This document shows positions 57,031 through 59,507 of a stretch of 64,000 nucleotides of DNA, in pieces. The notes under the pieces were generated by a model that was not told where the DNA came from, ran no database searches, and saw only the letters and a program-made list of their open reading frames with translations. Source of the DNA: Heliomicrobium modesticaldum Ice1 (lineage in GTDB: Bacteria > Bacillota > Desulfitobacteriia > Heliobacteriales > Heliobacteriaceae); contig NC_010337.2 in the NCBI RefSeq assembly GCF_000019165.1, positions 985,001-1,049,000 on the forward strand. The letters run 5' to 3'. A program made the position numbers and the translations under genes. Positions within the stretch are counted from its first letter, which is position 1. Each line of letters begins with the position of its first letter.

Positions 57031-57528
57031 ATGACCACACCGGAAGAACGGCTGCTCGAAAACCACGAGCAAATCGTTGCAGAGATTGATGCCCTTGACC
57101 AGAAGCTATCCAAAATCCAGTGGGAGGAATCGACCCTCGAAACCCAGGAGACCTCCCTTTTGCAGCGGGTGATTGAGAACATCCTGCCGGCGCTCGATAA
57201 AATCTACCGGAGCGGGATCAAGTTCCCCATCGCCGATACAGGTCACCACTACCCGGAGATCGTCCTCATCTACGATGCGAAGAAGAAGGTCTTCTACACC
57301 CTGACCAAGAACGGCGAGATCATGGAGCGAGACTTTGTCACCCCGTCTGATGTCAACCTGTTGCCCACCTGGGTCTTCGTCTCCAAATATCCCCTCGAGC
57401 AGGTCATCGGCAACATCGCCGACGCCATCGATCGGTACCGCACCTTTATCATCGATGCAGAGCAGCGCCACGACCAGCGCAAACAGTTCCTCTCCAAGAT
57501 CCCGCAACTGAAAATCCCCAACCTGTAA
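57031..57528 (+). CDS. Conserved-looking protein of unknown function
   Basis: 165 residues with GAGGAGGG before the ATG. An N-terminal coiled coil (about 5-50) precedes a mixed alpha/beta region (FPIADTGHHYPEIVLIYDAKKKVFYTL) and a C-terminal helix. It is soluble, has no signal peptide and resembles no family I recognise. It is the plus-strand gene immediately before the DnaA-box cluster. Confidence 0.7.
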   Translation: MTTPEERLLENHEQIVAEIDALDQKLSKIQWEESTLETQETSLLQRVIENILPALDKIYRSGIKFPIADTGHHYPEIVLIYDAKKKVFYTLTKNGEIMERDFVTPSDVNLLPTWVFVSKYPLEQVIGNIADAIDRYRTFIIDAEQRHDQRKQFLSKIPQLKIPNL

Positions 57529-57556
57529 AGGTCTATTCCACAGCCAACGAGGGGGG

Positions 57557-57607
57557 TTATCCACAATTATTGTGGATTTTGGCTCTTTATCCACAGAGTT
57601 ATCCACT
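57557..57607. promoter_or_regulatory. Cluster of DnaA boxes
   Basis: Two perfect DnaA boxes ttatccaca lie at 57557-57565 and 57587-57595, and ttatccact (8 of 9) at 57599-57607. On the opposite strand 57571-57579 matches 7 of 9, and 57619-57627 is another 7 of 9. An AT-rich stretch follows at about 57660-57765. This is a DnaA-binding site of origin-like density. Confidence 0.8.
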
Positions 57608-57785
57608 AACTCCCCAATCTATCCCCAGTATCGACAGGATCGCGGCGATGGACAAGCGTCCGAGAAAAAATCGGTGGCACCGCAAAAAAAAAGCTGTACG
57701 CCACCCTTTTCTTTTGCTAAAATAAATCTCATGAAAACTATAAATTCAGAAAATTTGTAATTCGTAGTCACTGGGAGGGTATAGC

Positions 57786-59507
57786 ATGCACACGGAGCGT
57801 ATCCCTGTCTTCCCCGGCAATCCAAACCTGAAATCCTATGAAGAGGCCCGCGCGACCTTTCGATGGGAAGATGTGGAGCGCGAGTTCTCCTGGCACACAA
57901 CGGGAAAAGTGAACATCGCTTATGAGGCGATCGACCGGAACGTGCTGGAAAAAGGCCTTGGCGACAAAGTCGCGCTGTACTACTCCGATCCTGCCCGCCA
58001 GGAGGCGATCACCTACCGGCAGATGATGGAGCAATCCAACCGCTTCGCCAACGTGCTGCGCAAGCACGGCATCGGCAAAGGGGAACGGGTCTTCATCTTC
58101 ATGCCCCGCAGCCCTGAACTGTACTGGTCCTTCCTGGGCATCATCAAGGTGGGCGCCATCGCCGGTCCCCTCTTCGAAGCCTTCATGGAAGGCGCCGTCC
58201 GGGACCGCCTGGCTGACGCCGAGGCGGTCGCCATCGTCACCACGCCGGCACTGCGCAAACGCATCCCCAAGGAAGACCTGCCCCACCTGAAGCACATCTT
58301 CATGGTCGGCATTCCCGAAGGCGGTCTCGGCGAAGGCGAACTGGATTGGCACGCCGAGATGGCTGAAGCGTCGCCGGAAACGGACATCGAATGGGGCGAT
58401 CGCGAAGACCCCATGCTGCTCCTTTACACCTCCGGTTCGACGGGCAAGCCCAAAGGGGTGCTCCATGTCCACAACGGCATGATCCAGCACTACCAGACGG
58501 GCAAGTGGATCCTCGACCTCCGTCCCGATGACATCTACTGGTGCACCGCCGACCCCGGTTGGGTCACCGGCATCTCCTACGGCGTCTGGGCGCCCTATCT
58601 GAACGGCGTCACTTCCGTCGTCCGCGGCGGCCGCTTCCGCCCCGACGATTGGTATAAAACCATCCAAGACTACCAGGTCAACGTCTGGTACAGCGCCCCC
58701 ACCGCCTTCCGGATGCTCATGAGCGCCGGCGACGACATCGTCAAGCAGTTCGACCTCTCCTGCCTCCGCCACATCCTCTCCGTCGGCGAACCGCTCAATC
58801 CGGAGGTCATCCGCTGGGGTCTCAAGGTCTTCAACCGCCGCATCCACGACAACTGGTGGATGACCGAAACGGGCGGCCAGATCATCTCCAACTACCCTTG
58901 CATGGACATCAAACCCGGCTCCATGGGCAAGCCCTTCCCCGGCATCCACGCAGCCATCATCGATGACAAGGGCAACGAACTGCCGCCCTTGCAGATGGGC
59001 AACCTGGCCGTCAAAGCGCCTTGGCCCTCCATGATGCGCAAGATCTGGAAAAATGAGGCCAAGTACAACGAATACTTCAAGATCGAAGGCTGGTACATCT
59101 CCGGCGACTCGGCCTACATGGACGAAGAGGGATACTTCTGGTTCCAAGGCCGCATCGACGACGTGATCAACACCTCCGGCGAACGGGTCGGCCCCTTTGA
59201 GGTCGAGTCGAAGCTGGTTGAACACCCGGCTGTCGCCGAAGCCGGCGTCATCGGTAAGCCCGACCCGCTGCGCGGCGAGATCATCAAGGCCTTCATCGCC
59301 CTGCGAGAGGGCTACCTCTGGACAGAAGAGCTGAAAAAGGAGATCATCGACTTCGTCAAAAAAGGCTTGGCCGCTCATGCGGCGCCCCGCGAGATCGAGG
59401 TCCGCGACAAACTCCCCAAAACCCGTTCCGGCAAGATCATGCGCCGCGTCCTCAAGGCCTGGGAACTGGGCCTGCCGACAGGCGACCTCTCGACGATGGA
59501 AGACTGA
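57786..59507 (+). CDS. acsA: Acetyl-CoA synthetase (AMP-forming)
   Basis: 573 residues of the ANL superfamily; activates acetate (or a short acid) to acyl-CoA through acyl-AMP. The P-loop block YTSGSTGKPKG and the core YISGDSAYMDEEGYFWF with GRIDDVIN are present. The catalytic Lys is in KTRSGKIMRR near the C-terminus. GGGAGGG precedes the ATG. An AT-rich promoter region with TTGCTA and TATAAA about 19 bp apart lies upstream, next to the DnaA boxes. It is monocistronic with its own terminator. Confidence 0.92.
   Translation: MHTERIPVFPGNPNLKSYEEARATFRWEDVEREFSWHTTGKVNIAYEAIDRNVLEKGLGDKVALYYSDPARQEAITYRQMMEQSNRFANVLRKHGIGKGERVFIFMPRSPELYWSFLGIIKVGAIAGPLFEAFMEGAVRDRLADAEAVAIVTTPALRKRIPKEDLPHLKHIFMVGIPEGGLGEGELDWHAEMAEASPETDIEWGDREDPMLLLYTSGSTGKPKGVLHVHNGMIQHYQTGKWILDLRPDDIYWCTADPGWVTGISYGVWAPYLNGVTSVVRGGRFRPDDWYKTIQDYQVNVWYSAPTAFRMLMSAGDDIVKQFDLSCLRHILSVGEPLNPEVIRWGLKVFNRRIHDNWWMTETGGQIISNYPCMDIKPGSMGKPFPGIHAAIIDDKGNELPPLQMGNLAVKAPWPSMMRKIWKNEAKYNEYFKIEGWYISGDSAYMDEEGYFWFQGRIDDVINTSGERVGPFEVESKLVEHPAVAEAGVIGKPDPLRGEIIKAFIALREGYLWTEELKKEIIDFVKKGLAAHAAPREIEVRDKLPKTRSGKIMRRVLKAWELGLPTGDLSTMED

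Follow-up and report, generated by a model that had tools for sequence, protein, structure and literature searches.

Why a dense cluster of DnaA boxes should lie directly in front of acsA in Heliomicrobium modesticaldum Ice1, away from dnaA, is the question raised by this locus. The original prediction offered three answers: the cluster might be part of oriC, a DnaA-titration site of the kind known from Bacillus, or a DnaA-controlled promoter region of acsA. DnaA-box clusters outside oriC have so far been studied mainly in Escherichia coli and Bacillus subtilis, and a cluster kept across a family of phototrophic Bacillota would show that such clusters can be long-lived, lineage-specific elements of replication control. 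We analyzed a stretch of 64,000 bp (hereafter the window), which corresponds to positions 985001-1049000 of the single-contig 3,075,407-bp chromosome; coordinates given below are window positions unless they are marked as genome positions. Questions concerning the whole genome were addressed by pattern searches and by 20-kb samples.

Architecture of the array and of the acsA promoter region

The array occupies a 257-bp gap between the gene for a 165-aa protein (57031..57528, + strand) and acsA (57786..59507, + strand), which encodes an acetate--CoA ligase of 573 aa. Its core spans 51 bp of the + strand and comprises two perfect boxes, B (57557..57565) and C (57587..57595), both with the sequence TTATCCACA, followed 12 bp after box C by box D (TTATCCACT, 57599..57607), which has one mismatch. 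Four boxes with two mismatches surround these three: box A (TATTCCACA, 57534..57542, + strand), a reverse box (AAATCCACA, 57571..57579, - strand), and two adjoining boxes on the + strand beyond box D (CTATCCCCA, 57619..57627, and GTATCGACA, 57628..57636). The reverse box forms a perfect inverted repeat with box B, ATCCACAA-TTA-TTGTGGAT. Thus, the dense cluster is real and contains two perfect boxes (57557 and 57587), as claimed, but the description of several further boxes as near perfect was too generous, the box at 57599 being the single one with one mismatch while the rest carry two. Likewise, the statement that the boxes face both ways comes down to one reverse box (57571) with two mismatches.

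Such a concentration of boxes is far beyond what chance would produce outside oriC. Only 17 exact TTATCCACA boxes are present in the 3.08-Mb genome, two of them in the array and four around dnaA; four times in the genome the TATCCAC core is repeated directly after a gap of 4-34 bp, and two of these pairs fall within the array; and a pattern search of the same genome returned no box cores paired closely in inverted orientation. Among 21 sampled stretches (~464 kb), the two dnaA-flanking regions alone equal or exceed the array in boxes with at most one mismatch. The idea that AT-rich nonamers had merely accumulated in a noncoding gap draws on the lower AT content of genes relative to intergenic DNA. 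However, neither 6 Mb of Markov sequence modeled on the window nor 3 Mb of simulated sequence of intergenic composition contained a stretch with at least three boxes (at most one mismatch each) in 51 bp, so that 9 Mb of simulated sequence gave no equal cluster. Moreover, the array is kept with fixed spacing in all nine heliobacterial genomes, a conservation that already refutes a chance origin and leaves it a negligible probability.

The AT-rich stretch that had been noted beside the boxes does exist (57665-57765, 68% AT), and it is mostly the promoter and leader of acsA. Here we recognized a putative extended -10 element (TTGCTAAAAT, 57714..57723, + strand), which aligns in 9/9 genomes and was not picked up by a consensus promoter scan, and further downstream, in the leader, a CodY-box-like element (TAAATTCAGAAAATT, 57741..57755, + strand), whose TCTGAA/TCAGAA core is likewise aligned in all nine. 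The latter was so called by its likeness to the CodY consensus and suggests nutritional repression of acsA; each of seven genomes checked for CodY, five heliobacterial ones among them, encodes this regulator. In the alignment, the -10 element, the CodY-like element, and the acsA start codon keep near-constant spacing. In contrast, the distance from the end of the array to the conserved TTTGCTA..AT element varies between genera from 59 to 135 bp, with the promoter lying 106 bp downstream of the array in the window genome; because of this drift, the array behaves like an independent unit and not like a phased operator. Between the boxes and the promoter lies an imperfect inverted repeat, GGTGGC..GCCACC (57673..57705, + strand), which the alignment shows for just two genera. 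It could be the terminator of the 165-aa protein gene or an operator, and a terminator scan found nothing for that gene.

Conservation of the array among heliobacteria

The array is found upstream of acsA in each of the nine heliobacterial genomes examined, always between acsA and whatever lies on its other side; named relatives sharing the locus, among the matches listed, include a Heliobacteriaceae MAG and Heliobacterium mobile. Thus, the boxes are retained in close relatives (9/9), where a lack of conservation would have counted against a function. Conservation extends to the geometry: the sequence of box C is invariant and the 12-bp C-D spacing is kept in 9/9 genomes, and the B-C spacing is 30-31 bp in 8/9, the exception being G006, in which the box preceding C sits 20 bp away. 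Most genomes additionally have a box with one or two mismatches ~22-23 bp before box B. At the level of the alignment, boxes C and D and the greater part of B form conserved blocks, as do the extended -10 element, the CodY-like element, and the ribosome-binding region, and the DNA between them is diverged and variable in length. Among the weaker boxes, box A has one mismatch in G003, G004, and G008; the reverse box is kept in two genera (G000-G002, G004, and G008); a two-mismatch box occupies the place of the box at 57619 in G001, G002, G004, and G008; and the box at 57628 is limited to the genus.

The upstream gene, whose stop codon precedes box B by 28 bp, encodes a protein of unassigned family for which Pfam and NCBIfam searches gave no match; it is present in 7/9 heliobacteria and missing from G005 and G006, both of which retain the array. 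We therefore dropped the notion that the array belongs to this gene. Two acsA genes of a neighboring family (73-75% identical) lack the array. In the seven genomes that have both features on one contig, the array lies 34-50 kb from dnaA. The genes between the two are largely syntenic across the compared genomes, and for this reason the distance lends no independent support to titration or to a distance requirement; we abandoned it as evidence of that kind.

Position relative to the replication origin

The gene dnaA lies at 1088.2-1089.5 kb of the genome, with the array 45-46 kb to its left, so that the cluster is indeed away from dnaA, as had been stated, and near oriC yet distinct from it. 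Box clusters resembling an oriC flank dnaA on both sides (genome positions 1087870-1089592), and of the boxes that have no more than one mismatch, seven lie upstream of the gene and three in the dnaA-dnaN gap. Across the surrounding 124 kb, the cumulative GC skew reaches its minimum near 1094 kb, close to dnaA and away from the array, and in coarse 20-kb samples the skew is mostly negative before dnaA and more often positive after it. The array is thus neither at the switch in GC skew nor next to dnaA. A simple pattern scan, itself a weak test, found a run resembling a DnaA-trio in the dnaA-dnaN gap and none at the array.

What speaks for a role of the array as part of oriC or as a second functional origin, in which the AT-rich stretch would serve as the unwinding element, is a density of boxes on a par with oriC, the AT-rich DNA that adjoins them, and the presence in the window of genes for a DnaD-domain protein and a DnaA-like AAA+ protein similar to helicase loaders. 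The boxes are also the same as those of the bipartite oriC of B. subtilis and of the dnaA-flanking clusters of this genome; indeed, the dnaA-dnaN gap holds a 12-bp box pair with a GAG spacer like that of the array. Furthermore, the arrangement of a box followed after 20-24 bp by a pair with a 3-bp gap is seen, among the matches listed, at oriC in many phyla and in other places. However, dnaA does not adjoin the array, simple pattern scans detected neither a trio-like run nor an IHF consensus there, and the AT-rich DNA is for the most part that of the acsA promoter and leader. Because dnaA with its flanking box clusters lies 45-46 kb away and the local skew minimum is near it, the array is not oriC; we rejected this role on position and skew, and consider it highly improbable.

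Proposed titration of DnaA and possible regulation of acsA

Box clusters away from oriC are bound cooperatively by DnaA in B. subtilis, where the protein also regulates some of the adjoining genes (PMC4447404, PMC5295017, PMC13220808), and deletion of six such clusters results in early initiation (PMC5295017, PMC13220808). These clusters lie in the gcp/ydiF, ywlC, ywcI, yydA, trmE, and sda regions and, like the array, combine several near-consensus boxes of the same consensus in a short intergenic stretch, in a member of the same phylum; some of them are also close to the origin. The array differs from them in its location upstream of acsA, which is not a B. subtilis site, and in having fewer strong boxes (three with at most one mismatch), and it is predicted from sequence. 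We favor, with a probability of roughly 0.6, the reading that it belongs with the DnaA-box clusters known from B. subtilis outside oriC; it would bind DnaA cooperatively, limit free DnaA, and perhaps influence acsA. Titration is the best supported of the three originally proposed roles, and the simplest account is that the array works as the B. subtilis clusters do; that DnaA binds it, and does so cooperatively, that it titrates DnaA, and that it acts on acsA are all inferred.

Under the titration reading, DnaA would be expected to occupy boxes B, C, and D cooperatively and on one face of the helix, since the spacings of ~30 and 12 bp are near whole turns, while box A and the weaker flanking boxes would be bound at higher DnaA concentration. 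Because the array is close to oriC, it would be doubled soon after initiation, and each new copy would tie up DnaA and thereby leave less of it free to re-initiate. Once bound to the array, DnaA might also affect the acsA promoter 106 bp downstream.

We found a 12-bp DnaA-box pair just after argH in 11 of the 13 related genomes scanned (one ArgH was profiled and the others were recognized by shared sequence); these sites are 0.28-1.3 Mb from dnaA and are followed by genes for nicotinate phosphoribosyltransferase or NAD synthase. One related genome has instead a cluster after tsaD, the counterpart of the gcp site of B. subtilis. The placement of clusters at argH and tsaD in related families suggests that selection is not for the neighboring gene, and clusters at genes so unrelated favor a role for the array itself. 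A family-wide array at acsA and an argH cluster in relatives would together testify to the persistence and lineage specificity of such control elements.

The most serious competitor, which we regard as possible though clearly behind titration, holds that the boxes are mainly an operator through which upstream-bound DnaA stimulates or represses acsA and so couples acetate activation to the replication cycle. The models for such control are sda and ywlC of B. subtilis, which are DnaA-controlled genes; as at the sda promoter, the boxes lie upstream of a gene. In each of the nine genomes the array immediately precedes acsA, including those in which the other neighbor is a different one, the two acsA genes of the neighboring family are without it, and the conserved -10 and CodY-like elements mark a regulated promoter region; such constant pairing of array and gene is what control of acsA by DnaA would lead one to expect. 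Unlike in promoters of the sda type, however, the boxes precede the -10 element by a variable 59-135 bp, and the want of a fixed distance or phase is weak evidence against direct contact. Furthermore, no strong box overlaps the promoter, the clusters of related families sit at genes unrelated to acetate (argH and tsaD), and none of the papers searched links acsA with a DnaA box. Titration and transcription may even be inseparable, in that most strong DnaA sites of B. subtilis are at promoters reportedly regulated by DnaA (PMC4447404). We also considered a composite, in which an array fixed at acsA would link acetate activation to the initiation of replication by both holding DnaA and making acsA transcription follow the replication cycle, related families having fixed their clusters elsewhere, at argH or tsaD; this seems doubtful. 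Still less credible, and in our estimate very unlikely, is a site that alters the nucleotide state of DnaA, recharging or inactivating it like DARS or datA of E. coli. These sites also consist of multiple boxes with fixed spacing outside oriC (PMC4585315), and datA resembles the role proposed for the array in lowering active DnaA after initiation. However, datA measures ~1 kb, has five boxes, and depends on IHF, whose site lies between essential boxes, whereas an exact consensus search found no IHF site near the array, and B. subtilis reportedly lacks both datA and DARS sites (PMC13220808). The array offers a compact site at which titration might be tested against gene regulation.

Several further clusters came to light in the course of the searches. 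The argH sites are those of loci L222-L224, L226-L228, L231-L234, and L237, around position 1500, and the dense cluster after tsaD (gcp), in the place of the gcp/ydiF cluster of B. subtilis, occupies positions 1474-1640 of L240. The window genome itself has a second, weaker cluster after argG (L088, 1500-1598; genome position 1451811), and a similar pair is present in G001. In G008 and G004, of the Heliobacterium mobile genus, three DnaA boxes spaced at 12 bp fall within the first codons of an ArsR-family gene (L026/L027, 2248-2280). In G002, a cluster with several perfect boxes adjoins an amino-acid permease gene (L061/L070, 1376-1601). Finally, in G003, two 12-bp DnaA-box pairs face each other ~5.5 kb from dnaA, after a P-II-like gene (L066, 1500-1588).
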